From the NCBI GenBank assembly GCA_017308235.1, contig JAFKFL010000011.1, forward strand, positions 124,001-188,000: DNA of 64,000 nucleotides, given 5' to 3'. Source of the DNA: Alphaproteobacteria bacterium (GTDB taxonomy: Bacteria; Pseudomonadota; Alphaproteobacteria; Reyranellales; Reyranellaceae). The position numbers and the translations under genes were made by a program. The notes beneath the pieces are model-generated. The model ran no database searches. It was not told the DNA's origin and saw only the letters and a list, made by a program, of their open reading frames with translations. Position 1 is the stretch's first letter. The number at the start of each line of letters is the position of its first letter. Positions 24,876 to 40,488 of this stretch are shown here, piece by piece.

Positions 24876-25889
24876 ATGATCAAAAAAATGAAGGGACTGG
24901 GGATTGTCGCCGCGATGGCGGCCTTGCTGGCGGCCGCGCCTGCATCGGCACAGACGCCGATCAAATTCACGCTCGACTGGGTGTTTCAGGGCCCGACCTC
25001 GCCGTTCCTGGTGGCCCTGGAGAAGGGTTACTACAAGGCCGAGGGGCTCGACGTGACCATGGACCCCGGCCAAGGCTCGGCGGGTGCCGTGCAGCGCGTC
25101 GCGACGGGCGCCTACCAGATCGGCTTCGCCGACGTGAACTCGACCATCGAGTACAACGCCAAGAACCCGGGCAAGGAAGTGCTCTGCGTGTTCATGGCCT
25201 ACGATTTCGCGCCTTTCGGCGTCTATGCGCTGAAGAAGAGCGGGATCAAGGTGCCGAAGGATCTCGAGGGCAAGAAGCTCGGCGCGCCGGTGTTCGACGC
25301 TTCGTTCCGCCTGTTCCCGGCCTTCGCCAAGAAGAACGGCATCACCAAGTGGGAGCATGTGAACCTGACGCCGCAGCTGCGCGAGCAGAGCCTCGTGCAG
25401 GGCTCGGTCGACTTCATCTCGGGTCACTATTTCTCCTCGATGCTCGACCTCAAGGCACGTGGGGTGAAGTTCGATGACATTGTCGCCATGCGCTATGTCG
25501 ACTATGGCCTCGATGTCTACGGCAATGGCATCGTGGTCTCGCAGGAGATCGCCAAGAACGAGAAGGCCGTGAAGGGCTTCGTCGCTGCCACCATCAAGGG
25601 TTGGCGGGACGTGATCAAGGACAACAAGCTCGGCGTGGCTGCCGCCAAGAAGCGCGATCCGCTGATCGACGATGCGCTCGAGCTGGAGCGCCTGCAGCTT
25701 TCGCTGCAGACCAACATCCTGACGCCCTATGTGAAGGCGAACGGCATGGGCGATGTCGAGCCCGACCGCTTCGCGCGCTCGGTCAAGCTCGTCTCGGAAG
25801 CCTTCGGCCTGCCGCAGGCGCCGGCACCTGACAAGGTCTTTACCGACAAGTTCCTGCCGCCGAAGGCTGATCGGATGGTCGCGCAATAG
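24876..25889 (+). CDS. NMT1/SsuA-type ABC transporter substrate-binding protein
   Basis: A 337-residue periplasmic binding protein. The Sec signal peptide (Lys-rich start, hydrophobic core, APASAQ cleavage site near residue 26) is clear. The mature part opens IKFTLDWVFQGPTSPFLVA, the NMT1/THI5-like fold typical of uptake of thiamine-pyrimidine precursors, taurine, sulfonates or aromatic acids. The stretch YYKAEGLDVTMDPGQGSAGA is the usual ligand-pocket loop. It starts a three-gene operon with ATPase and permease genes (ATPase start overlaps this stop by one base). The substrate is unknown. ABC importers of this type are frequent in soil alphaproteobacteria and often annotated loosely as nitrate/sulfonate systems. 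Confidence 0.9.
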   Translation: MIKKMKGLGIVAAMAALLAAAPASAQTPIKFTLDWVFQGPTSPFLVALEKGYYKAEGLDVTMDPGQGSAGAVQRVATGAYQIGFADVNSTIEYNAKNPGKEVLCVFMAYDFAPFGVYALKKSGIKVPKDLEGKKLGAPVFDASFRLFPAFAKKNGITKWEHVNLTPQLREQSLVQGSVDFISGHYFSSMLDLKARGVKFDDIVAMRYVDYGLDVYGNGIVVSQEIAKNEKAVKGFVAATIKGWRDVIKDNKLGVAAAKKRDPLIDDALELERLQLSLQTNILTPYVKANGMGDVEPDRFARSVKLVSEAFGLPQAPAPDKVFTDKFLPPKADRMVAQ

Positions 25890-26674
25890 TGCCATTCGTC
25901 GACCTCAAAGGCGTCAGTCTCACCTATCGGCTGGGCAAGGAGACGACGCTCGCGCTCGCCGATGCGACCATGACGGTCGAGAAGGGTGAGTTCGTCGCCG
26001 TCGTCGGCCCTTCGGGGTGCGGCAAGTCGACGATCATGAAGCTCGTGACCGGCCTCCTGCCGCCGACTGGCGGTGAGGTGAAGGTCGCGGGCGAGCGCGT
26101 AACGGGACCGATCAAGGGCGTCGGCATGGCCTTCCAGAACCCGACCCTGATGCCCTGGCGCACGACGATGGCGAACATCCTCCTGCCGATGGAGGTGGTC
26201 GAGCCGCACAAACGCCGCTTCCGCCGCAATCGAGCCGACTATGAGGCGCGGGCGATGAGGCTTCTGGGCACGGTGGGCCTTGCCGACTTCGCCCAGAAGT
26301 TTCCCTGGCAGCTTTCGGGCGGTATGCAGCAGCGCTCCAATCTCTGCCGTGCGCTGATCCACGAGCCTGAACTTTTGATGCTGGATGAGCCGTTCGGTGC
26401 GCTCGATGCCTTCACGCGCGAGGAGCTGTGGGGCGTGATGCAGGCGTTATGGCTCGAGAAGCACTTCACTGGCGTGTTGGTCACGCACGACCTGCGCGAG
26501 GCAGTCTATCTCGCCGACACTGTCCACGTGATGAGCCGGCGGCCAGGCCGCATCGTGCTCACGCGCAAAATCGATATCCCGCGGCCACGCACGCTTGCCA
26601 CCACCTTCGAGCCGCACTTCGTCGGCATCGTCCACGAGCTGCGCGACCGCATCCACCAGGAGCATGCCGCATGA
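25889..26674 (+). CDS. ABC transporter ATP-binding protein (SsuB/TauB type)
   Basis: A 261-residue ATPase of the nitrate/sulfonate/taurine importer group. Motifs: Walker A VGPSGCGKSTIMK, Q-loop GMAFQNPTLMPWRTT, signature LSGGMQQRSNLCRAL, Walker B LLMLDEPFGALD, H-loop VLVTHDLREAVYL. The start is GTG, in a TAGTG stop-start overlap with the binding-protein gene. This implies translational coupling. Its stop overlaps the permease ATG by 4 bp. Together the three genes form one complete importer. Confidence 0.93.
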   Translation: MPFVDLKGVSLTYRLGKETTLALADATMTVEKGEFVAVVGPSGCGKSTIMKLVTGLLPPTGGEVKVAGERVTGPIKGVGMAFQNPTLMPWRTTMANILLPMEVVEPHKRRFRRNRADYEARAMRLLGTVGLADFAQKFPWQLSGGMQQRSNLCRALIHEPELLMLDEPFGALDAFTREELWGVMQALWLEKHFTGVLVTHDLREAVYLADTVHVMSRRPGRIVLTRKIDIPRPRTLATTFEPHFVGIVHELRDRIHQEHAA

Positions 26675-27448: not shown

Positions 27449-28435
27449 TCACCGTTGGCGCAATCCGGCCAGCAACGGCATCGCCTCTGATGCAAAGCGT
27501 TCGATCTGTCGGTCGCGCTCCTCGTAGGGGCCGACGAAGTCGAGAATGACGTGGCGGACGCCCGATTCGTGAAACCGGAATATGCGTTCCGCTACGCGTT
27601 CGGGTGGGCCGAGAGCGCAATAGCGCTCGGCGGCCTTGCGGAAATCCATGGCGTAGCGCTGACTGAGTGAGATGGTCGCGGCGTCGAGCGCTTGTTCGTA
27701 AGTGTCGGCGACGCAGGTGAACAGGAGATGGGCAGTCCCGAAGCCGCGCTCGAAGGTACGTTTGGCCTCGCTTGCGGCCGCCGCGATCTTATCCAGGCCC
27801 TGACGGAACATGTCGGGCGTGACGACATAGGACATCCAGCCGTCGGTCTTGCGGCCGACACGCCGCAGCGCCGCATCCGAGCGGCCACCACACCAGATCG
27901 GTGGACCGCCGGTCTGCCGCGGCGGCGGCTGCATCGGCACATCCTTGAACTGGAAGAAGCGGCCGTCATGTGACGCTGGCGCGCCGCTCCAGAACTTGCG
28001 CAGCACATCGAGACTCTCGGAAAGGCGTGCGCCGCGTTCGCCGATCGGCACGCCGCAGGCTTCGTACTCCTTGGGAAATTCGCCACCCACGCCGACACCG
28101 AAGATGAACCGGCCTTCGGTCAGGTGATCCAGAGTCGAGACCTGCTTGGCCACCGGTGTCGGATGGCGTAGCGGCAGGAGGTAGACCGCCGTGCCAAGCT
28201 GCAGGCGCGGGCTCACCATGGCGGCCTGCGCGAGCTGCAGGAAGGGATCGAAGATCGCGAGCGGGAAGGAGATGTGATCGCCGACCCACAGCGAATCGTA
28301 GCCACAGCGGTCGACCAGCTCGACCAGCGTCCGCATCTCGTCGATCGTCGGCAGCCACGGACCGGTGGCCGGTTCGGTGCGTCGATGGATGGTCTGCACG
28401 CCGACGCGCAGCCGGTCGTCGAGTGGAAGGTCCAT
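27449..28435 (-). CDS. LLM-class flavin-dependent oxidoreductase
   Basis: A 328-residue luciferase-like monooxygenase (TIM barrel). The family segments GYDSLWVGDHISFPL, LGTAVYLLPLRHPTPVAKQ and LTEGRFIFGVGVGGEFPKEY are typical of the F420/FMN-dependent LLM subgroup related to alkanesulfonate monooxygenase SsuD. It probably uses FMNH2 or F420H2 to oxidise a small substrate. The start at 28435 is 4 bp after the stop of a second LLM gene, so the two are co-transcribed. A neighbouring ABC importer could supply the substrate, but it is convergent and the link is only positional. Confidence 0.87.
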   Translation of the reverse strand: MDLPLDDRLRVGVQTIHRRTEPATGPWLPTIDEMRTLVELVDRCGYDSLWVGDHISFPLAIFDPFLQLAQAAMVSPRLQLGTAVYLLPLRHPTPVAKQVSTLDHLTEGRFIFGVGVGGEFPKEYEACGVPIGERGARLSESLDVLRKFWSGAPASHDGRFFQFKDVPMQPPPRQTGGPPIWCGGRSDAALRRVGRKTDGWMSYVVTPDMFRQGLDKIAAAASEAKRTFERGFGTAHLLFTCVADTYEQALDAATISLSQRYAMDFRKAAERYCALGPPERVAERIFRFHESGVRHVILDFVGPYEERDRQIERFASEAMPLLAGLRQR

Positions 28436-28439
28436 CGCT

Positions 28440-29486
28440 TTATCCTTCCGTCTTGAAGCCGCGAAAGGTCCGCGGGATGCGGTGGATCTCGGCAAGCATC
28501 TCGCGCACCGGTCCGACCTCCCAGCCCGGCGACAGCGGGATGGAGATGGAATCGGCCACGCCGCCGAAACGCCGCTCGATCTCGTGCGGAATTTCAGCGT
28601 AGGTGCCGCAGGCGGCGAAGATGCGCAGCGTATCGTCGGAAATGAGTGGTGCCATGTCCTTCCATTGGCCCTGCACCGACATCTCGTGCAGCCTCTGACC
28701 AAGATCGTCCAGGCCATGCATGGCGAGGATCGGCCTGTAGGTGCGGGTCGAGCCATAGAAGGCGACCCGGAAACGCGCCGCTTCCATCGCCTTGCGGACC
28801 GTGGCTTCGTCGGGGCCGGTGCAGACGAAACCGCCGCCGTGGATGTCGAACTGCTCGCGTCGACGGCCGGTGCGCTGCATGCCTTCGAGCATCGCGGGCA
28901 GGCTGACCTCCTCGAGGTAGCGGCGACTGCAAATTGGATGAAGCCGTACGCCATCGCACAGTTCGCCGGCCAGCCGCAGCATGGCGGGCCCGACGGCCGA
29001 GATCGTGACCGGCACCATCGGCAAGCCCGTTCGCTCCGGTGAGAACTCGGGCGTCATCAAGGTCAGCGCATAGTGCTTGCCGCGATAGTCGAGCTTCTCG
29101 CCTTTCTCCCAGCATCGCCAGATCGCGCGCAGCGCTTCGATGTATTCACGCAGGCGAGGCGCCGGCGGTGTCCAGGGGATGCCGAACCGGCGCTCGTTGT
29201 GGCCTTTCACCTGGGGACCAAGGCCCAGCACGAAGCGTCCGCGCGAATTGGCCTGGATATCCCACGCCTCCGACGCGAGTACGGTCGGGCTGCGCGGGAA
29301 AGCGACGGCAATCGACGGCGTGAGCTCCACCCGCTCGGTGGCAATGGCGGCGAAGGCGAGTGGCGCCAGCACGTCATGGCCGAGCTCGGTGGTCATCAGG
29401 GCATCGAAGCCTGCCGCTTCCGCGGCCTGGGCCGCCGGTCCAACGCTACGCCAGTCGGCGGGCGGCAGCTCAGTGAACACGCGCAT
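28440..29486 (-). CDS. LLM-class flavin-dependent oxidoreductase
   Basis: A 348-residue luciferase-like protein. It shows AAEAAGFDALMTTELGHDV, ELTPSIAVAFPRSPTVLA, GRFVLGLGPQVKGHNERR and ISAVGPAMLRLAGELCDGV, a pattern common to the mycobacterial-type F420-dependent LLM family. Sequence differs clearly from its downstream neighbour, so they are not recent duplicates. Upstream gene in the likely two-gene operon. Cofactor choice (FMN or F420) cannot be decided from sequence alone. The family is often involved in breakdown of xenobiotics or sulfonates. Confidence 0.86.
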   Translation of the reverse strand: MRVFTELPPADWRSVGPAAQAAEAAGFDALMTTELGHDVLAPLAFAAIATERVELTPSIAVAFPRSPTVLASEAWDIQANSRGRFVLGLGPQVKGHNERRFGIPWTPPAPRLREYIEALRAIWRCWEKGEKLDYRGKHYALTLMTPEFSPERTGLPMVPVTISAVGPAMLRLAGELCDGVRLHPICSRRYLEEVSLPAMLEGMQRTGRRREQFDIHGGGFVCTGPDEATVRKAMEAARFRVAFYGSTRTYRPILAMHGLDDLGQRLHEMSVQGQWKDMAPLISDDTLRIFAACGTYAEIPHEIERRFGGVADSISIPLSPGWEVGPVREMLAEIHRIPRTFRGFKTEG

Positions 29487-29563: not shown

Positions 29564-30661
29564 TCAGGCGACGGCAGGCTGGTCGACAGTCTCGCCATGC
29601 GAGCGGTGCAGCCGGGCCGCTTCGGCCTTCACCAGCGGCAGATCGGCATAGATCTTGAGATAGTCCTTTGCCATGCGTTCGGCGGCGAAGCGCCGCTCGA
29701 ACGCAGCCCGCACCTTGCGACGGTCGAGCGTGTCGAGACGGGACAGGGCCTCGACCGCCTCGTCGAGGGTGCGGACGACGAAGCCCGTCACGCCATCGTC
29801 GATCACCTCCGGCACCGCCCCGGCCCGAAAGGCGATCACCGGCGTGCCGCAGGCCATCGCCTCGATTGTCACAAGCCCAAACGGTTCGGGCCAGTCGATC
29901 GGGAACAGAAGGGCTCTAGCGTTGCCGAGGAACTCCGCCTTCTCCTGTTCGTTGATCTCGCCGACGAACTCGACATTGGAATGGGCCTTGACCATCGGTT
30001 CGATCACCGTGTCCCAGTAGGCCCGGTCGGCGCGGTCGACCTTGGCTGCCATCTTCAGGGGCAGCCTGGCGCTCGCAGCAATCTCGATCGCGCGGTCCGG
30101 CCGCTTTTCGGGGGAGATACGGCCGAGGAAAGCCAGGTAGTCGCGGCTCGGATCGGCCTTGAAGGGCAGGAGGTCGAGCGGCAGCCCGTGGTAGACGTTG
30201 CCGACCCAGTTGAGAGGATGTGGAAGAGGGCGGCGTTGATCGAGCGAAATCGAGGTCAGTGGGATATCCGGGAATGCGGCGAAGAAGGGCTTGAGATCGG
30301 GCAGATCAAGCCGTCCGTGCGTCGTCGTGATCGTGCGATCGGCAAATTCACGGATCAGCGGGAAATGCAGAAGATCGACATGGAAGTGGAGGACGTCGAA
30401 ATCGTTCGCCCGCCGCCGGACCTCGTCGAGCATGACGACATGATATGGCACAGGATCCTTGACGGCGGGATTGAGCCGCAGAGCCATGTCGCTGCAACGG
30501 ATGAGCTTCGCCGTGGTTTTCGAATCGCCGCTGGCGAACAGGGTGACCTCGTGGCCCAGCCGGACGAGCTCCTCCGTGAGATACGACACCACCCGCTCCG
30601 TGCCGCCATAAAGCTTCGGCGGGACACGCTCGAAGAGCGGGGCGATCTGGGCGATCTTCAT
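29564..30661 (-). CDS. GT4-family glycosyltransferase
   Basis: A 365-residue retaining glycosyltransferase with the GT-B fold. The N-terminal acceptor half opens MKIAQIAPLFERVPPKLYGG with the TERVVSYLTEELVRLGHEVTL split over residues 21-41. The C-terminal nucleotide-sugar half has YLAFLGRISPEKRPDRAIEI and the E-x7-E motif region in PEPFGLVTIEAMACGTPVIA. Such proteins add sugars to lipids, glycans or small molecules at the cytoplasmic face. It stands alone and gives no hint of the acceptor. The start at 30661 is the first codon of the conserved MKIAQIAP segment. Confidence 0.9.
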   Translation of the reverse strand: MKIAQIAPLFERVPPKLYGGTERVVSYLTEELVRLGHEVTLFASGDSKTTAKLIRCSDMALRLNPAVKDPVPYHVVMLDEVRRRANDFDVLHFHVDLLHFPLIREFADRTITTTHGRLDLPDLKPFFAAFPDIPLTSISLDQRRPLPHPLNWVGNVYHGLPLDLLPFKADPSRDYLAFLGRISPEKRPDRAIEIAASARLPLKMAAKVDRADRAYWDTVIEPMVKAHSNVEFVGEINEQEKAEFLGNARALLFPIDWPEPFGLVTIEAMACGTPVIAFRAGAVPEVIDDGVTGFVVRTLDEAVEALSRLDTLDRRKVRAAFERRFAAERMAKDYLKIYADLPLVKAEAARLHRSHGETVDQPAVA

Positions 30662-30722: not shown

Positions 30723-31904
30723 CTAGGTTTCGAGCATGCCGTCGCGTGCAACGACGCGGCCCGCCTTGACCACCAGTTTGCGGCGAGGTCGGCTGGCAAT
30801 CGCTTCGGCGATCGACCCGGCTGCAACGACAACGAAATCGGCTCGGCTGCCGACATGCAGGCCATAGTCGGCGAGACCGAGGGCGCGCGCGGCGGCGGAT
30901 GTCACCATCTCGTAGGCCACGGACAGCTCGTGGTCGTGCCGGAAGTTGGCACGATAGCCGATCATCATGGCGCGATCGAGCATGTCGCCGTTGCCGAACG
31001 GCGACCAGGCATCGCGGATATTGTCCGAACCGCCGAACACTTCGACGCCATGTTGGCGCAGCAGAAGGAGAGGCGGGATGGTCGCTGCTCCCGGCCCGTG
31101 GCTCATGATCGCGACACCGGCGTCGGCCAGCGCATCGGCCGTTTCGGCGGCCCGCGCCGTCGGAACCGAACCCAGCGCGAAGGCGTGGCTGACGGCGACC
31201 TTTCCAGAGAGACCGGCGGCTTTCGTGCGTGCGGCGATGGCAAGCAGCTCGACGATCCCGCCTTCGCCGCCGTCGTGCAGGTGAATATCGATGCCGACGC
31301 CGCGTCTTTCGGCGATACCGAAGATCGCATCGAGGTGACCATCGAGATCGCCATCGATGCCGACGGGATCGAGGCCGCCCAGAAGATCGGCGCCGTCGGC
31401 AATGGCGGCATCCAGGAGATCGGCCGCGCCGGGTGAGCGCAGGACCCCGCTTTGTGGGAAGGCCACGATCTCGATCGTGACGAGGTCGCGGAAACGCTCG
31501 CGCACCTTCAGAATCTCGTGGAGATTGCGCAGCCCGAGCTGGTTGTCGATATCGACATGGCTGCGCATGTGCAGCGTACCGCTGGCCAGCACCTGGCGCA
31601 CGAGATTGGTGCCGGTCTCCGATTCCGGAAGGCTGCGTGCCGCACGGACCTTGCGCTCGGCCTCGATGCGATCGGCCACCTGATTGCCCGTCGCCCGGTT
31701 GGGTACCCACGGCAGGCCGAGCAAGGTCTTGTCGAGGTGGATGTGACCGTCGACCAATGGCGGCAAGACCAGCGCGCCATCGAGATCGAGGTCCTCAGCT
31801 GATGCTGCATTCCCTGAAGACGGGAGGAGGGCGGCGATCCGCCCTCCTTCGACACTGATGTCGCGCCGGCTGCCGTCGGGCAACGTGGCGTTGACGTACC
31901 GCAC
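30723..31904 (-). CDS. Cytosine deaminase-like amidohydrolase
   Basis: A 393-residue amidohydrolase of the cytosine deaminase group. The metal site is readable: HxH in LVDGHIHLDKTLLG, further His in DIHLHDGG and VSHAFALGS, and the Asp in VFGGSDNIRDAWSPFG. The start and end carry the small beta domain (RYVNATLPDGS..., VVKAGRVVARDG). Substrates in this family range from cytosine to creatinine, isoguanine, triazines and lactams. It is 3 bp downstream of an HpcH/HpaI aldolase gene and belongs to a locus with a CUT1 importer, so the true substrate may be a sugar- or lactam-type compound rather than a base. Confidence 0.85.
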   Translation of the reverse strand: MRYVNATLPDGSRRDISVEGGRIAALLPSSGNAASAEDLDLDGALVLPPLVDGHIHLDKTLLGLPWVPNRATGNQVADRIEAERKVRAARSLPESETGTNLVRQVLASGTLHMRSHVDIDNQLGLRNLHEILKVRERFRDLVTIEIVAFPQSGVLRSPGAADLLDAAIADGADLLGGLDPVGIDGDLDGHLDAIFGIAERRGVGIDIHLHDGGEGGIVELLAIAARTKAAGLSGKVAVSHAFALGSVPTARAAETADALADAGVAIMSHGPGAATIPPLLLLRQHGVEVFGGSDNIRDAWSPFGNGDMLDRAMMIGYRANFRHDHELSVAYEMVTSAAARALGLADYGLHVGSRADFVVVAAGSIAEAIASRPRRKLVVKAGRVVARDGMLET

Positions 31905-31907
31905 CGT

Positions 31908-32693
31908 CTACTTGTCCGCGACGGCGCCAGCTTCCTTGCGGGTCTGGTTGACGGCGGCACGCGCGGCTTGCGCCATCAGGCCCGAGTCGTTGGCGATGGT
32001 CACGAACCGGAAGCCCTTGCCGATCATCTTCGCAGCGTAGCCCGCGGTGCCGTTATGAATGCCGGCGAAGAGGTTGCGCTTCTTCACTGCCGCCAGAAGC
32101 TTGTCGTAGATCGCGAGGACCTGCGGCTCCTCGCGATCGAGGATCGGCTTCAGGCCGAGCGACAGGCCGAGATCGCTGGGGCCGATATAGATGCCGCTCA
32201 CGCCGGGCACGTCGAGGATGGCGTCGATATTGTCGATCGCCTCCTGCGTCTCGATCATGGGGATGACCAGCACTTCGTCGTTGGCGGATGCCTGATAGGG
32301 CGTCGCCTCGCCGTAGGCGCCGGCGCGGATCGGACCGTTGCTGCGCTTTCCCTTGGGCGGGTAGAGGCTGTAGGAGACCAGCGCCTTCGCTTCCGCGGGC
32401 GTGTTCACCATAGGGCAGATGACGCCCCAGGCGCCGCCATCCAGCACCTTGCCGATGATGCCCGGCTCGTTCCAAGGCACGCGCACCAGTGGCGTCACCG
32501 GATGCTTGTCCATCGCCTGGAAGCAGGTGACCATCGACTGGTAGTCCTGCACGCCGTGCTGCATGTCGACGGTGACGCTGTCCCAGCCGCATTGCGCCAT
32601 GGTCTCGGCCGAGAAGCCGTTGGGGATGGCGAGCCATCCATTGACGCAGGCCTTGCCTGCCTGCAGGCGCTTCTTCAGCATGTTCGACGACAT
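31908..32693 (-). CDS. HpcH/HpaI-family aldolase
   Basis: A 261-residue class II (metal-dependent) aldolase of the HpcH/HpaI/2-keto-3-deoxy sugar acid group. Visible features: VNGWLAIPNGFSAETMAQCG, WDSVTVDMQHGVQDYQS with the conserved DxEHG-like motif (here DMQHG), VRVPWNEPGII, MIETQEAIDNIDAIL with the metal-binding Glu, and IGPSDLGLSLG with the metal-binding Asp. It should cleave a 2-keto-3-deoxy acid to pyruvate and an aldehyde. Position between CUT1 permeases and an amidohydrolase, facing a sugar epimerase and a dehydrogenase, suggests a sugar-acid aldolase. Confidence 0.88.
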   Translation of the reverse strand: MSSNMLKKRLQAGKACVNGWLAIPNGFSAETMAQCGWDSVTVDMQHGVQDYQSMVTCFQAMDKHPVTPLVRVPWNEPGIIGKVLDGGAWGVICPMVNTPAEAKALVSYSLYPPKGKRSNGPIRAGAYGEATPYQASANDEVLVIPMIETQEAIDNIDAILDVPGVSGIYIGPSDLGLSLGLKPILDREEPQVLAIYDKLLAAVKKRNLFAGIHNGTAGYAAKMIGKGFRFVTIANDSGLMAQAARAAVNQTRKEAGAVADK

Positions 32694-32785
32694 ATCGGCG
32701 TTCCTTCGCTCCAGGTTGTGGCCGGATCATAGGCATCTCGCTCACCGCAGACCACGGCATCCTGTCGCACTGCGGACAGAATCGG

Positions 32786-33673
32786 TCAGCCTTTGACAGC
32801 GCCGGCGGCAAGGCCTTCGACGATGTATTTCTGCAGGAGCGCCACGAGGATCACGGTGGGCGCCAGCGCCAGAAGACAAATCGCCATCATCAGGTTGAAG
32901 AAGACGTGGACGTCGCCTACCAGGCTTGCGATCACGACCGGCAGGGTCATGAAGTCGGGACGTGCGTTCAGGATCAATGGGATCAGAAGCTCGTGCCAGG
33001 AGATAATGAAGACGATGACGCCACAAGCTGCAAGGGCCGGCGTCGCAAGCGGCAGCACGATCCTCACGAAGGCGGTAAAGCGCGTGCAGCCGTCGATGCG
33101 CGCAGCTTCCTCGAGCTCGGTGGGAATGGTGTCGAAGTATGGCGCCAGGATCAGGATGGCGTAGGGCAGTAGGAAACCGGTTTCTGCAAAGATCACGCCT
33201 TGTAGCGAATTGAGCTGCCCCAGCGAGCGCATGACGACATAAAGAGGAATCATGAGCACGATGGCCGGCACGAAGCGCGCGACGATGTTCGCCTGCAACA
33301 GGAAAAGCATCCACTTGTAGCGCTGACGGGAAATCGTGTAGGCCGAAAACGAACCGAACAGCAGTGTCAGGAACGTCACCGAGACCGCGATGATCGCCGA
33401 ATTGGCACAAGCCGCGTAGAAGTTCTTGATGTTATCCGGCAGGTAGGTGATCTGCTCGAAGATATGGCCCTTTTGTTGGCCCTTGCTCAGGATGACCATG
33501 AAGTTGTCGAGGGTGAATTCGAGCGGCAGGACGCGGCGTGTGTCGGCCTGAAGGGCCTTCTCGGACTGGATGCTGCCGATAAACACAGCCGCGAGAGGCA
33601 GCAGGATGAAGAAGATCACCATGAGATTGGCGGCATGCAGCAGCATCCGCGCCGAGATCGACTTCGCCCTCAT
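32786..33673 (-). CDS. CUT1-type ABC transporter permease (MalG/UgpE type)
   Basis: A 295-residue permease with about six helices. The EAA loop (ELEEAARIDGCTRFTAFVRI, then VLP) marks the ATPase contact. N-terminal part is typical for the second permease of carbohydrate importers (LPLAAVFIGSIQSEKAL). Its ATG overlaps the stop of the first permease gene by 4 bp, so both are coupled. The frame extends further upstream, but only the 33673 start gives the usual length. No ATP-binding protein gene lies in the cluster. Confidence 0.92.
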   Translation of the reverse strand: MRAKSISARMLLHAANLMVIFFILLPLAAVFIGSIQSEKALQADTRRVLPLEFTLDNFMVILSKGQQKGHIFEQITYLPDNIKNFYAACANSAIIAVSVTFLTLLFGSFSAYTISRQRYKWMLFLLQANIVARFVPAIVLMIPLYVVMRSLGQLNSLQGVIFAETGFLLPYAILILAPYFDTIPTELEEAARIDGCTRFTAFVRIVLPLATPALAACGVIVFIISWHELLIPLILNARPDFMTLPVVIASLVGDVHVFFNLMMAICLLALAPTVILVALLQKYIVEGLAAGAVKG

Positions 33674-34554
33674 AGCGTTACCCGTCGGTAGACGACGCGC
33701 ATGTAGAAGATCGCCATGACGATGATCATGAAGGCGAGGATGTAGGCTGATGCCGATCCCATGCCAAAATTGTTGGGTGGCGCGAAGGTAATCTTGTAGC
33801 TGTACCAGGCCGCGACCCAGGTGGCATCGCCCGGCCCTCCTTGAGTGATGGCGAGGATCTCTTCGAACACGGCGAAGGCGAAAGCTGTGCGCAGAACCAG
33901 GATGACGGCGAGGATCTGCCGCAACATCGGCAGTGTGATGTGCCAGAAGCGTCGCCACGCGCTTGCACCATCAATGGCCGCTTGCTCGTAGAGTTCGCGC
34001 GGAATGCCCTGGAGGGCCGCGTGCACCAGGATGATCGCGAAGGGCAGCGTGCGCCAGACATAAGGGATGGCGACCGCGTAGAGGGCTGTGTCGGGAACGC
34101 CCGTCCAGTTGATCCGTTCGTGGATCAGGCCGGTCGACAGCAGGATCCGGTTCAGGAATCCGAACTGGAAACTATAGATGAAGGTCCAGATTAGGCCATT
34201 GGCGATCGGCGGGACGGCGTAGGGCAGCAGGATGAGAAACCGCGTGACGCGCGAGGTCCAAATGCCGGTCTGATTGATCAGTAGGGCGATCATCACCGCC
34301 AGGACGATCTCGCTCCCGACCGTGACGGCCGTGAAGATCAACGTGTTCTTGATGGCGGTCCAGAAAAGCGGGTCGGTGAGCACGCGGCCGTAATTCTCCC
34401 AGCCGCTGAAGGCGAAGACACCACGCCTGAGTTGCGCCAGGCCAACGCGATGCACTGACAAGTAACCCGCGTAAGCGACGGGGTAGGCCAACACCAAGGC
34501 CAGGAAGACGAGCGTCGGCAGATTCATGAACAGGGCAAAGCGCGAAGCCGGCAT
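33670..34554 (-). CDS. CUT1-type ABC transporter permease (MalF/UgpA type)
   Basis: A 294-residue permease, six predicted helices, EAA loop at ELYEQAAIDGASAWRRFWHI. It is the first permease of a sugar-type importer; its stop overlaps the next permease start. Upstream the frame stays open for about 25 codons with basic residues (SRSPWYRRE), which resembles the cytoplasmic N-terminus of relatives, but no good start codon was found there, so the ATG at 34554 is used. The binding-protein gene ends 73 bp upstream. Confidence 0.9.
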   Translation of the reverse strand: MPASRFALFMNLPTLVFLALVLAYPVAYAGYLSVHRVGLAQLRRGVFAFSGWENYGRVLTDPLFWTAIKNTLIFTAVTVGSEIVLAVMIALLINQTGIWTSRVTRFLILLPYAVPPIANGLIWTFIYSFQFGFLNRILLSTGLIHERINWTGVPDTALYAVAIPYVWRTLPFAIILVHAALQGIPRELYEQAAIDGASAWRRFWHITLPMLRQILAVILVLRTAFAFAVFEEILAITQGGPGDATWVAAWYSYKITFAPPNNFGMGSASAYILAFMIIVMAIFYMRVVYRRVTL

Positions 34555-34627
34555 CTCGCGCCGATACCAGGGGCTGCGGCTTCGCCCGCGCGCCGCAGCG
34601 ATGACGTGGGCCTCGGTGGTCAGGGGA

Positions 34628-35986
34628 TCAGACCTTGCGCTTTGCCTCGGCGATCCCCTTGATCAGATTGTCACAACACTGATCGGCGGTGATCTGGCCG
34701 GTAAGGCAGTTCTGGACCTCGATGTTCAGTTGGTCGGTCCAGGGGAAATGCCAAGGCTGATAGACCGAGGAACAGACTTCGCCGATATAGGTCGCCTTGT
34801 CCCAGATCTTGAGAATGGTCGGCACGTCACCCCATGGCGCCCAGCCCGTCTTGACTGCATCGCTGTTCATCACCGAGTTGTAGCCCGATCCCAGCATCGC
34901 ATCCTTGGCAAGACCGATCGCCTGCGTGTAGTTGCCGTCTTTGGTGCGGCCGCCGAGATATTGCAACAGCTTCCAGGCCCATTCCTTGTTCCGGTTTGCC
35001 GTCGTGACGAAATAGACATGCGCGTCAGCGATCGTCCTGCCATCGCCCGGCGATTCGAGGACCTTGACCTTGCCGGCGATCGGCGACTGCGTCGGATCGT
35101 TCACGACGTTCAGGCCGTAGTGGTGGTTGGGTCCGCGATAGAGGTTTTTGCCGGCCCCGAACGCTTTGGCCGAAGTCGTGAACTGGACCTTGAGCGATTC
35201 CGGATCGGCGATATCGAGGCCCTTCTCGAAGGTGTTGGCCCACCATTTCAGCGTCTCGCGGGCGATCGAGCCCGGGCCCAGCATATGGTTGCCCTGCTTG
35301 TCGAAGAAGGTGCCGCCGCGATTCCAGGTCATCTGGTACCAGGTGCCGGGCAGCTGCTCGAGACCGACGCCCGCGACCCACAGCACCGGGTAGCGTGAGA
35401 CGCCGTCTCTCTTGGCCTTCACGCAATGCTCGATGAATTCATCGTAGGTGGTGAACGGCTTGTCGATCTTCAGTTTCTCCAGCATGTCGACGTAGTAGTT
35501 CCACACCCATACAGCTGCGAAATAGGGAAGGCCAAGCGTCTTGCCGTCGATCGTTGCGACCTGCTTGGTGAAGGCCGAGAAGTCTTTGACGTAGTCCGCG
35601 ACCCCTGGAAGGCCGTCGAGCGGTTCGACCAGTCCTTGGTTGACGAAGTTGGGAAATGAAAAAGGCGAGGATTGCGACACGTCGATTTTCTCGCCGGCCG
35701 CATACATTGTCGTGAGTTTGGTCGGATGATCGTTGAAGGACGAGATGGTGGAATCGACCGGAACGCCCCAGTCCGCCTCGAACTGCTTGGCGATGCGCGT
35801 ATAAATATCGCCATAGGTCCAGACCACGAAGTTCAGGCGATCGACTTTGCCCTTTGGCGCCTCACTCCAGGGTCCGGTCTGCTGCCCGAGCGCCCCGCCG
35901 GCGGTGCCAACGATACCAAGACTCGCGGCGGCGCCAATCACGTGCCGCCTGCTTAGCTCCCGCCGATAGATCAGCTTGTTTGCCAC
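34628..35986 (-). CDS. CUT1-type sugar ABC transporter substrate-binding protein with Tat signal
   Basis: A 452-residue extracellular solute-binding protein (family 1). The preferred start is GTG at 35986, six bases after GGGGAGG; it yields a twin-arginine signal (RRELSRRHVIGAAASLG) so the protein is probably folded and exported by Tat. The mature part begins near GGALGQQ. Family features include WTYGDIYTRIAKQFEADWG, SQSSPFSFPNFVNQG, and YFVTTANRNKEWAWKLLQYL. It leads a transcription unit of binding protein, two permeases, aldolase and amidohydrolase. The ligand is unknown. The reading frame remains open to 37039, but the extra part has no matching signal and overlaps real genes. Confidence 0.88.
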   Translation of the reverse strand: MANKLIYRRELSRRHVIGAAASLGIVGTAGGALGQQTGPWSEAPKGKVDRLNFVVWTYGDIYTRIAKQFEADWGVPVDSTISSFNDHPTKLTTMYAAGEKIDVSQSSPFSFPNFVNQGLVEPLDGLPGVADYVKDFSAFTKQVATIDGKTLGLPYFAAVWVWNYYVDMLEKLKIDKPFTTYDEFIEHCVKAKRDGVSRYPVLWVAGVGLEQLPGTWYQMTWNRGGTFFDKQGNHMLGPGSIARETLKWWANTFEKGLDIADPESLKVQFTTSAKAFGAGKNLYRGPNHHYGLNVVNDPTQSPIAGKVKVLESPGDGRTIADAHVYFVTTANRNKEWAWKLLQYLGGRTKDGNYTQAIGLAKDAMLGSGYNSVMNSDAVKTGWAPWGDVPTILKIWDKATYIGEVCSSVYQPWHFPWTDQLNIEVQNCLTGQITADQCCDNLIKGIAEAKRKV

Positions 35987-36076
35987 GTCGAACCTCCCCA
36001 AAGTCTTCGGTGCCGCCTTGGCGTCGCAAGAACCTCGCCGGGATGGACGGCACTCTGTGTTCTGGTAGACAAGGCT

Positions 36077-36940
36077 ATGACGATTCTCTCGCTGGTGACA
36101 GCCCGGATTGCCGTCGATCTCGCTCCTTCGGCCGGCGGTGCCGTCTCGCGCTTTCGTGTCGATGGGATCGACCTGCTGCGTCGCATGGCCTCGATCGATA
36201 TTGACTCGGGGCGCGGCAACAATGCCGCTGCCTATCCGTTGGTTCCGTTTTCCAATCGCATCGCGAACGGTCGCCTCGACTTCGAAGGCGAGACCTTCTC
36301 CCTGAAACCCAACTGGCCCGGCGTTGCGCATCCAATGCATGGCGACGGCTGGTCGCACAGTTGGGACATCCTGCGAGCCGACGCACAGGCAGCCGAGATC
36401 GCCTACCTCCACGAGCCGGCCGGAGCGGAGGGAGGCTGGCCGTTCCGCTATCGGGCGCGACAGAGCTATCGGCTGCAGCCGGACCGACTGACCGTCACCC
36501 TGGAGATCGACAATCTCGAAGACCGGGTGGTACCGGCCGGCCTTGGCCTGCATCCCTTCTTCCTTAGGGAGCAAGACAGCGAGCTTGCCTGCAGCACCGA
36601 GGCCGTGTGGCAGACCGACGCCGAGGTCCTGCCGGTGAAGCGGGTGCCAGTGCCGGCTGAGTGGAACTTCAGCAAGCCACGTCGCGTCAACGAGGTCGTG
36701 CTGGACAATTGCTTCGACGGCTGGACAGGCAAGGCCACCATCCTCTGGCCCAGCCGGCGCCTGCGCCTCGATCTCGAGGCCAGCGAACCGTTCCGTCACG
36801 TCGTGATCTATGTACCACCCGGCCAGCCCTATTTCTGTGTCGAGCCGGTGAGCCATGCGAGCGGGCAGGTGGGCGCGCTGCCGCTGGCGCCTGGCGCGAC
36901 GCGCCGGGGCGAGATTGTCTTCCGTATCTCCGATTTGTGA
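36077..36940 (+). CDS. Aldose 1-epimerase family protein
   Basis: A 287-residue galactose-mutarotase-fold protein that would interconvert alpha and beta anomers of a free sugar. Conserved histidines are visible in HPMHGDGW and GLGLHPFF, and the catalytic Glu in YFCVEPVSHA. NNAAAYPLVPFSNRIANGRL is the N-terminal family signature. It faces the CUT1 binding-protein gene across 90 bp and is followed 6 bp later by an SDR gene, consistent with delivery of the right anomer to a sugar dehydrogenase. Confidence 0.88.
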   Translation: MTILSLVTARIAVDLAPSAGGAVSRFRVDGIDLLRRMASIDIDSGRGNNAAAYPLVPFSNRIANGRLDFEGETFSLKPNWPGVAHPMHGDGWSHSWDILRADAQAAEIAYLHEPAGAEGGWPFRYRARQSYRLQPDRLTVTLEIDNLEDRVVPAGLGLHPFFLREQDSELACSTEAVWQTDAEVLPVKRVPVPAEWNFSKPRRVNEVVLDNCFDGWTGKATILWPSRRLRLDLEASEPFRHVVIYVPPGQPYFCVEPVSHASGQVGALPLAPGATRRGEIVFRISDL

Positions 36941-36946
36941 GGGGCC

Positions 36947-37714
36947 ATGCCGTCTTTCGCTTCCTACCCCAGCCTCAAGGACCGCACCGTGTTCGTCTCG
37001 GGTGGCGGCTCGGGCATTGGCGCCTCGATTGTCGAGCATTTTGCCGGGCAGGGGGCGAAGGTGGGATTCGTCGATATCGACGAGCCGGCCTCAACGGCGC
37101 TCGTGAAGAAGATCGCGGCGGTGGGCCACGTCGCGCCTCTGTTCCTGAAAGGCGATGTCCGCGACGTAAAGGCTTATCAGGCGGCAATTGCAGAGGTGGC
37201 GGCGAAGCTCGGCACGATCACGGTGCTGATCAACAACGCCGCACGCGACGACCGGCACGACCTTGCGGATGTCACGCCAGCGTTCTGGGACGAGCGCATC
37301 GCCGTCAACCTGCGCCATCAGTTCTTCGCCATCCAGGCCGTGGCACCGGGCATGAAGGCGGCGGGCGGCGGTTCGATCGTGAATTTCAGCTCGGTCAGCT
37401 ACCACACCATGACCGCCCGGCTCTCGGTCTACGAGGCAGCGAAGGCGGCGGTCATCGGCCTGACACGTGGCCTCGCGCGCGATCTCGGGCCTGACAAGAT
37501 CCGGCTGAACGCGATCACGCCGGGCTGGATCATGACGCAGCGCCAGATCGACCTCTGGCTCACGCCCGAGGCCGAGGCTGATCTCATGAAAGCGCAATGC
37601 CTCAAGGAGAAGGTCTACCCACCCGATATCGCGCGTATGGCATTGTTCCTGGCGTCAGACGACAGCCGCCTGATCTCGGCACAAAATTTCGTCGTCGACG
37701 GCGGGCGGATGTAA
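36947..37714 (+). CDS. Short-chain dehydrogenase/reductase, probable sugar dehydrogenase
   Basis: A 255-residue classical SDR. The cofactor motif is SGGGSGIG (residues 18-25, replacing TGxxxGIG) and D42/D44 after strand 2 suggests NAD rather than NADP. The catalytic Ser149, Tyr162 and Lys166 (SVYEAAK) are intact, and NNAA lies at 96-99. The C-terminus ends FVVDGGRM as in many sugar and alcohol dehydrogenases. Six base pairs after the aldose epimerase gene, so it likely oxidises the same aldose to a lactone as the first step of an oxidative sugar route. Confidence 0.88.
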   Translation: MPSFASYPSLKDRTVFVSGGGSGIGASIVEHFAGQGAKVGFVDIDEPASTALVKKIAAVGHVAPLFLKGDVRDVKAYQAAIAEVAAKLGTITVLINNAARDDRHDLADVTPAFWDERIAVNLRHQFFAIQAVAPGMKAAGGGSIVNFSSVSYHTMTARLSVYEAAKAAVIGLTRGLARDLGPDKIRLNAITPGWIMTQRQIDLWLTPEAEADLMKAQCLKEKVYPPDIARMALFLASDDSRLISAQNFVVDGGRM

Positions 37715-39010: not shown

Positions 39011-39774
39011 TCACGTATCGATGCGGTAGTCGACCCACTCGGCGATCAGTTCACGCAGGCCGGCATCCTCGCGGAATGCGCGGGCCGAGCCGTCGACCTT
39101 GTTCTGGCCGAGCTCGAGCACATAGAGATGGTCGCAGACCTGCACGCACTGGCGCACGTTCTGGTCGACCAGAAGGACGGTGATGCCCTGCGCGGGCAGG
39201 CCACGGATGAAGGCGTAGATGTCGGCGCTGATGCGCGGGGCGATCATCGCCGTCGGCTCGTCGAGCAGCAGCACGCGGGGCCTGAGCGCCAGTGCCCGGC
39301 CGAGCTCGAGAAAGCGCTGCTGGCCGCCGCTCATCGCGCCCGCCATGTCGCGCCGTCGCTCGCGCAGCATCGGGAACTGGGCGTAGGCGCGTTCCAGCGC
39401 CTCCCCGACCCGGGCGCGGTCGCCGCGGAATGACCAGCAGGCGAGCCGCAGATTGTCCTCGACCGAAAGCTCGTTGAAGAGGCTGCGATGCTGCGGCACG
39501 AGCGCGATGCCATGCTCGATGAACTTCCAGGGCGGCATCCCGGTCACGCGCCGGCCGTCGACCAGCACGTCGCCCGCGACCGGCTTCAGGAGGCCGTAGA
39601 GCGCGCGCAGCGCCGTCGACTTGCCGGCGCCGTTGGGGCCGATCACGCCGGTGATGAGGCCGCGCCTCGCCTGGAGCGAGAGTCCGCGCAGGATGCGGAT
39701 GTCGCCATGGTAGGCCACATCGACGCCCTTGAGCTCCAACGCCGCGGGCTCGTCCCGGCTCGCGTTCTCCATCG

Positions 39775-39778
<4 letters not shown>
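39011..39778 (-). CDS. livF: LIV-type ABC transporter ATP-binding protein (LivF)
   Basis: A 255-residue ATPase of the branched-chain amino acid importer family. Motifs: Walker A GPNGAGKSTALRA, Q-loop ALVPQHRSLFNEL, signature MSGGQQRFLELGRAL, Walker B VLLLDEPTAMI, H-loop replaced by VLLVDQNVRQC as in typical LivF. Start overlaps the livG stop by 4 bp. Works as a heterodimer with LivG under the LivHM channel. The true substrate depends on the binding protein and is unknown. Confidence 0.92.

Positions 39779-40484
<706 letters not shown>

Positions 40485-40488
<4 letters not shown>

Follow-up and report, generated by a model that had tools for sequence, protein, structure and literature searches.

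How is a sugar-type importer energised when no ATPase is encoded with it, and what do the enzymes beside it degrade? The question is raised by seven open reading frames (ORFs) at positions 30723-37714 of a 64,000-nucleotide stretch of a Reyranella (Alphaproteobacteria) genome, here called the window. The minus strand carries genes for a binding protein (SBP), two CUT1 permeases (MalF and MalG), an aldolase (ALD) and an amidohydrolase (AMH), in the order SBP-MalF-MalG-ALD-AMH with intergenic gaps of 73, -4, 92 and 3 bases; the plus strand carries an aldose 1-epimerase (EPIM) and a short-chain dehydrogenase/reductase (SDR). All seven ORFs are open and match Pfam families above cut-off (Amidohydro_3, HpcH_HpaI, two BPD_transp_1, SBP_bac_1, Aldose_epim and adh_short_C2), in agreement with the gene set named in an initial annotation of this DNA. 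That annotation placed EPIM and SDR as facing the other genes, which here means a divergent orientation, head to head with SBP. It had also reported an importer without an ATPase, and no ATP-binding cassette (ABC) ATPase gene lies inside 30723-37714; the nearest in the window, SsuB (25889-26674), which adjoins an NMT1-type binding protein, and LivF/LivG (39011-40488), belong to systems of their own.

We consider it somewhat probable that this locus serves the breakdown of a sugar or of a compound resembling an amino sugar, and that its importer is driven by an ATPase from the gene cluster of another, complete CUT1 importer, which is not the same ortholog in every genome. In such a scheme a MalK/UgpC-type ATPase of the other importer would drive MalF/MalG, EPIM would mutarotate the sugar, and SDR would oxidise it at C1 to a lactone, from which an unlinked lactonase and an IlvD/EDD dehydratase would yield a 2-keto-3-deoxy acid. 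ALD would cleave this acid to pyruvate and an aldehyde, and AMH, with its AtzC-type site, would hydrolyse a C-N bond in either the substrate or one of the intermediates.

An importer lineage without an ATPase gene

The importer has the parts expected of the CUT1 type, an SBP_bac_1 protein and two BPD_transp_1 permeases with EAA loops. SBP (34628-35986, minus strand, GTG start assumed; PF01547, 61.1 bits) is read from its homologs and its SRRHVIG motif as a Tat-type (twin-arginine) sugar binding protein. The twin-arginine signal that the initial annotation had seen is recognised by eye in the N-terminal SRRHVIGAAASLG, and the arginine pair recurs in all four other aligned SBP homologs whose rows reach the N-terminus; the AlphaFold model of SBP is poor (mean predicted local distance difference test score 44.2). 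The MalF-type (33670-34554) and MalG-type (32786-33673) permeases, both on the minus strand, match PF00528 only, are of normal length, and overlap by ATGA at 33670-33673, as first described; MalG has no fused ATPase. The EAA loop of MalG was found by pattern, and that of MalF, EQAAIDGASAWRRFWHITLPML, was missed by the pattern and found by eye. Since both loops are present and both permeases are of normal length, a docking site for an ATPase remains.

A profile scan of a species-genome collection gave 60 loci, 58 of them with SBP at 51% identity or more (range 51-90%). The hosts are Reyranella, Vineibacter, Stella, Geminicoccaceae, Acetobacteraceae and others, together with one Rokuibacteriota and one Chloroflexota metagenome-assembled genome. 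The trio SBP-MalF-MalG is complete in 55 of the 58 and partial in three; the 35 complete loci with at least 3 kb on both sides were analysed, leaving out the partial trios and the 20 complete loci that fall short of 3 kb on one side. Many of the 58 come from one genus, and some are genomes already read for the genus loci described below, so that they are not independent. ATPase genes were sought by two motifs in ORFs of at least 180 amino acids, backed by tblastn with MalK, SsuB, LivF and LivG. By these means none of the 35 trio operons, within the genus or outside it, holds an ATPase gene. The initial annotation had allowed for close relatives that keep an ATPase in the cluster, with a deletion in this genome; none of the 35 is of that kind, and a deletion limited to this genome is therefore excluded. 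As far as examined, lack of an ATPase gene is a general trait of this importer lineage.

An ABC ATPase ORF of any kind lies within 3 kb of the trio in 11 of the 35 loci. Nine of these are on the opposite strand: five SsuB-type (L161, L166, L168, L180 and L196), one TauB-like (L204), one in L194, and two (L187 and L188) that are the MalK of a complete, convergent neighbouring CUT1 system. The other two are in separate units, a PotA-like ATPase (below cut-off) in L213, with a gene on the other strand between it and the trio, and in L215 an ATPase that sits with its own binding protein and permease. Assignment of a partner by proximity, whether to the convergent system of L187 and L188 or to the nearby ATPases of L194 and L213, was rejected, as none of these is conserved.

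In a class-wide sample of 385 genomes, SBP is matched at E 1e-20 or better in eight, of which six (our own included) are at 63% identity or more, and plasmid relatives of SBP are limited to one remote match at 24%. One genome carries a second, diverged trio copy (L129, G076:C92; 51-54% identity) on an 11.6 kb contig that holds no ATPase; an amidase gene follows this trio.

Candidate ATPases

Our own genome encodes four OB_MalK ATPases (K055-K058), each within an SBP-MalF-MalG-MalK cluster. Three single-contig, trio-bearing genomes were compared with it. G021, of the same genus, has three OB_MalK ATPases and one FbpC-like ATPase, and G242 has four OB_MalK ATPases, in both cases beside their own permease genes; G191 has two, likewise next to the permease genes of their own systems, and one of these is transcribed divergently from its permeases. 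(The count for G021 is three in one profile scan and four in another, with the fourth match at 27.2 bits.) The orphan CUT1 ATPase that the initial annotation proposed to look for was not found among the OB_MalK types of these four genomes. Nor do the four have a MalK ortholog in common, as judged by identity and not by a tree: the K055 type is present in our own genome and G021, the K056 type in our own, G242 and G191 (69%), and the K057 and K058 types in our own, G021 and G242. At least one OB_MalK ATPase is present in each of the 29 distinct trio-bearing genomes checked, 24 in the genus and G242, G191, G246, G147 and G044, the last with a single match at 28.1 bits (cut-off 27).

Sharing of an ATPase, the explanation first put forward, is thus the likeliest answer given the 35 ATPase-less operons, and the trio is probably energised by the ATPase of other importers. 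At the four positions of the MsmX multitasking signature, taken from the E. coli MalK numbering in the accessible part of PMC7658222, K055 (G000:C20) has D/R/E/K, K057 D/K/E/K, K058 D/R/D/A and K056 D/A/V/Q; in the same part of that paper its authors call the signature not decisive. As a first guess, K055 or K057 may be the partner. A broader proposal is that the trio is a plug-in importer of three genes, motorless across several Alphaproteobacterial families, whose permeases would accept any MalK/UgpC-type ATPase of the host with no dedicated or orphan one; this we put forward tentatively, as possible but doubtful.

The enzymes and the predicted route

The families of EPIM (36077-36940, plus strand; PF01263, 124.5 bits), SDR (36947-37714, plus strand) and ALD (31908-32693, minus strand; PF03328, 112.5 bits) fit the oxidative, non-phosphorylating route that the initial annotation had suggested. 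The best match of SDR in the PDB is 7wwx (306 bits), which we take to be an L-arabinose 1-dehydrogenase; 4lvu is also closer than the sulfoquinovose 1-dehydrogenase 9gwu (234 bits). SDR keeps the sugar-binding residues Asp99, Arg101 and Gln198 of the sulfoquinovose dehydrogenase of P. putida (PpSQDH), and has Thr and Thr at the positions of Arg152, which binds the sulfonate, and the nearby Arg154 (PMC12133307, as far as available). SDR likely oxidises an aldose, and sulfoquinovose is an unlikely substrate.

Homologs of ALD at 61-63% identity lie on plasmids near genes annotated as sugar-acid-type. In Agrobacterium T29 these are an SDR, an SMP-30 lactonase, a mandelate racemase/muconate lactonizing enzyme, RidA and a succinate-semialdehyde dehydrogenase; in N. 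capsulatum, SMP-30, an SDR, RidA and an amino acid deaminase; and in A. larrymoorei the ALD relative is divergent from an aldose 1-epimerase and beside an SDR, an amino acid deaminase and RidA. A paralog of ALD (50% identity) is present at L242:10304-11149 in G021 (R. massiliensis), adjoining a K057-type CUT1 operon. In Novosphingobium RL4, SDR- and AMH-like genes are about 10.5 kb apart, in separate units by gene calls.

The initial annotation had also remarked on the absence of a dehydratase or lactonase. By Pfam this is so among the seven locus genes, but not genome-wide, since five IlvD/EDD genes and 12 SMP-30 matches (seven of them strong) are encoded elsewhere. One of the IlvD/EDD proteins scores 1026.6 bits against NF009560 (dihydroxy-acid dehydratase in NCBIfam; cut-off 684), and presumably resembles Caulobacter XylD.

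AMH (30723-31904, minus strand) belongs to the NCBIfam PRK05985 subfamily of cytosine-deaminase/AtzC-like amidohydrolases (NF004636, 544.5 bits, cut-off 408), and its best PDB match is 6nbo, followed by AtzC. All 12 AtzC active-site residues compared are kept: H60, H62, K65, F158, Q160 and D188 of AtzC are H54, H56, K59, F149, Q151 and D179 of AMH, and H217, H219, H249, D303, N304 and W309 are H208, H210, H240, D294, N295 and W300. In AtzC, according to the available part of PMC4577212, H60, H62, H217 and D303 are zinc ligands, H249 is the base, and H219 replaces Glu217 of CodA. Because the site is of this type, that of C-N hydrolases, the predicted activity fits C-N hydrolysis better than the opening of a lactone, one of the two roles initially proposed; the other, opening of a lactam, is one that AMH may have.

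A formamidase gene is present beside ALD in six of the 33 genus loci (L052, L053, L136, L137, L138 and L139). In five of them it stands between ALD and AMH, and in L053 and L137 it runs 4 bases into the start of AMH; AMH is absent from the sixth, L139. The family, NF009803 (562.9 bits, cut-off 406), was matched in the two that were tested. RidA lies downstream of SDR in three of the 33. Formamidase, RidA and deaminases near ALD and AMH or their homologs suggest a nitrogen-bearing substrate, and hint, for example, at an amino sugar oxidised at C1.

A conserved Reyranella unit with a variable importer

Thirty-three genus loci, the window included, were read, with presence scored by tblastn and gene calls made by a codon-usage script trained on the window, which merges some genes. 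Of 37 genus genomes, 33 carry AMH at no less than 74% identity (once with an internal stop and once split). ALD is present in 32, SDR in 31 and AMH in 31 of the 33 loci, and all of the misses are at contig ends except for AMH in L139. EPIM-SDR divergent from ALD-AMH is the conserved Reyranella unit. The initial annotation had singled out the amidohydrolase as the odd piece; with the neighbourhoods compared, AMH is a regular companion of ALD, and it is the importer that varies.

The trio separates EPIM from ALD in 20 of the 33 loci, and in L140 it adjoins SDR where the contig stops; the contig of L039 ends too early to judge, and SBP is on another contig of that genome. Where the trio is absent, EPIM and ALD are about 60 bp apart. 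In the two nearest relatives (L035 and L036) the locus lacks it, and SBP is found at 82% identity or more in 24 of 61 genus genomes. On a midpoint-rooted tree of ALD, SDR and AMH (32 rows, without L140 and with the 'no' label of L039 a contig-end artefact) the trio label needs six changes, of which well supported branches force at least four; with shuffled labels the mean is 9.8, and a count this low was reached in 6 of 500 shuffles. The occurrence of the trio beyond the genus makes repeated loss the simplest explanation, and the importer between EPIM and ALD was probably lost repeatedly.

Alternative explanations and opposing evidence

For the importer, it seems very unlikely that a non-MalK neighbour in the window, SsuB or LivF/LivG, drives the trio: these are the nearest ATPases, but each is grouped with the permeases and binding proteins of its own system, and at many trio loci neither of them is close by. 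We give still less credence to a local loss of the ATPase in an importer that is now decaying. MalG is broken in two genus relatives (L046 and L139), SBP is split in G067, and the trio label switches several times on the genus tree, all of which would suit decay, but the trio ORFs are intact in the window, none of the 35 operons with sufficient flanks contains the ATPase, and SBP retains its identity over the 58 loci. A local deletion is rejected, as no relative examined has an ATPase in the trio operon.

For the enzymes, a sulfoquinovose (sulfo-Entner-Doudoroff) locus would comprise a sulfoquinovose mutarotase, a sulfoquinovose dehydrogenase and a 2-keto-3,6-dideoxy-6-sulfogluconate aldolase, and the mutarotase, SDR and HpcH/HpaI aldolase families here are the set given in the available part of PMC9594981 (PF01263, PF13561 and PF03328). 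SDR also matches 9gwu, and SBP has a weak match to SmoF (E 2.2e-7), and to other sugar-binding proteins as well. Other structures are closer to SDR, however, and no sulfogluconate dehydratase, sulfogluconolactone lactonase, sulfolactaldehyde dehydrogenase or glycosidase is among the seven locus genes; with both arginines of the sulfonate site lost, this reading is largely refuted and hardly credible. Less improbable, if still unlikely, is that ALD and AMH act in a nitrogen-heterocycle route with the luciferase-like monooxygenases (LLM1 and LLM2) and the NMT1/SsuBC importer encoded nearby, and that EPIM-SDR and the trio form a separate sugar unit that shares the promoter region. In L035 and L036, ALD, AMH, LLM1 and LLM2 are on one strand with gaps of less than 50 bases; relatives of AMH on Rhizobium plasmids (about 50% identity) adjoin a questin oxidase in all three regions read, and an 8-oxoguanine deaminase and a second amidohydrolase in two of the three; and the formamidase placements described above point the same way. 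Yet throughout the genus EPIM-SDR keep their head-to-head arrangement with ALD-AMH, the LLM genes are not constant neighbours in the genus loci, and ALD homologs elsewhere accompany genes annotated as sugar-acid enzymes.

Several observations weigh against the reading that we favour, a sugar or amino-sugar locus served by the ATPase of another importer. For the importer, sharing is deduced from the absence of an ATPase gene; the orphan survey was confined to OB_MalK types, and a PF00005 search of our own genome scored 150 of 293 candidates. In L200, L202, L213 and L216 an ATPase gene that has no permease genes next to it lies upstream of the trio, at a distance of 0.8-6.4 kb (none such was called in L203). 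OB_MalK occurs in all 61 genus genomes, with or without the trio (mean counts 4.8 and 4.0, respectively, in raw numbers), and for this reason its presence in the trio-bearing genomes is weak support. E. coli MalK and YcjV were unable to replace MsmX (PMC7658222, in the part available), so that not every MalK is promiscuous. For the enzymes, ALD (172.5 bits to the HpaI model, cut-off 368.8) and SDR (334.8 bits to its nearest NCBIfam model, NF053674, D-xylose 1-dehydrogenase, cut-off 400, and so failing the XylB equivalog test) are below the nearest equivalog cut-offs, and the substrate assignments of all locus proteins are predictions. The neighbours of the 61-63% ALD homologs are distant from ours (SDR at 25-28% or without a match, and no EPIM match at 1e-8), which makes this a likeness of content and not a shared operon, and the Rhizobium AMH relatives adjoin complete CUT1 systems with an ATPase. 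Finally, among the 35 trio loci with sufficient flanks, 17 carry one or more of the four enzymes next to the trio and 18 carry none, and in 11 of the 33 genus loci the enzymes occur without the trio, EPIM and ALD being directly head to head; importer and enzymes thus need not share a substrate.

Relation to known systems

Some CUT1 importers share an ATPase such as MsmK or UgpC; shared ATPases are best documented in Firmicutes, where the orphan MsmX and MsmK are the models, and the shared ATPase of Streptomyces is MsiK. Importers served by MsmX or MsmK resemble the trio in that a CUT1 binding protein and a pair of permeases are encoded without an ATPase and are energised in trans, as we infer here. 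They differ in that their ATPases are orphans, whereas every OB_MalK found here, in Alphaproteobacteria, lies with the permeases of another importer, and its sharing is predicted. In the part available, PMC7658222 describes the putative nucleotide-binding domains that it tested as 'either orphan or clustered' with further importer components; one of them, from Synechocystis, was functional, and ATPases encoded in an operon that can take the place of MsmX are on record too. Shared-ATPase importers are thus already known from that work; what is new is that the lineage, as far as examined, has no ATPase gene in its operons and that no orphan partner was found.

The enzymes recall the non-phosphorylative pentose and deoxyhexose Routes I-III (PMC6336799, as far as accessible), with an aldose 1-dehydrogenase, aldol cleavage of a 2-keto-3-deoxy acid (Route I) and a linked ABC importer, but the Reyranella locus is without a lactonase or dehydratase and adds an AtzC-type amidohydrolase. 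AMH likewise shares its active site with the AtzC/cytosine deaminase amidohydrolases of PMC4577212 (in the part available) but lies in a sugar-type locus. No account recognised as this locus was found in the open-licence literature searched.

If the favoured reading is true, an old Alphaproteobacterial importer lineage has neither its own nor an orphan ATPase, and the ATPase of one importer would routinely drive another. The trio loci would then offer cases in which to test what determines permease promiscuity, and such importers should not be annotated as incomplete in genomes.

Neighbouring genes

Two luciferase-like, F420-type monooxygenase genes (LLM1 and LLM2; TIGR03619 and TIGR03617, over cut-off) lie at 27449-29486 of the window, separated from AMH by a glycosyltransferase gene at 29564-30661. 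An NMT1/ABC/TauD-type block stands between ALD and AMH in L052, L136 and L138 (domains tested in L136). Most genus loci have two genes after SDR (L037:12051-13636 and homologs), the first in 25 and the second in 22 of the 33 and neither in the window; the first is read as a membrane protein and the second has DUF3592, and neither has an NCBIfam match at 1e-20.

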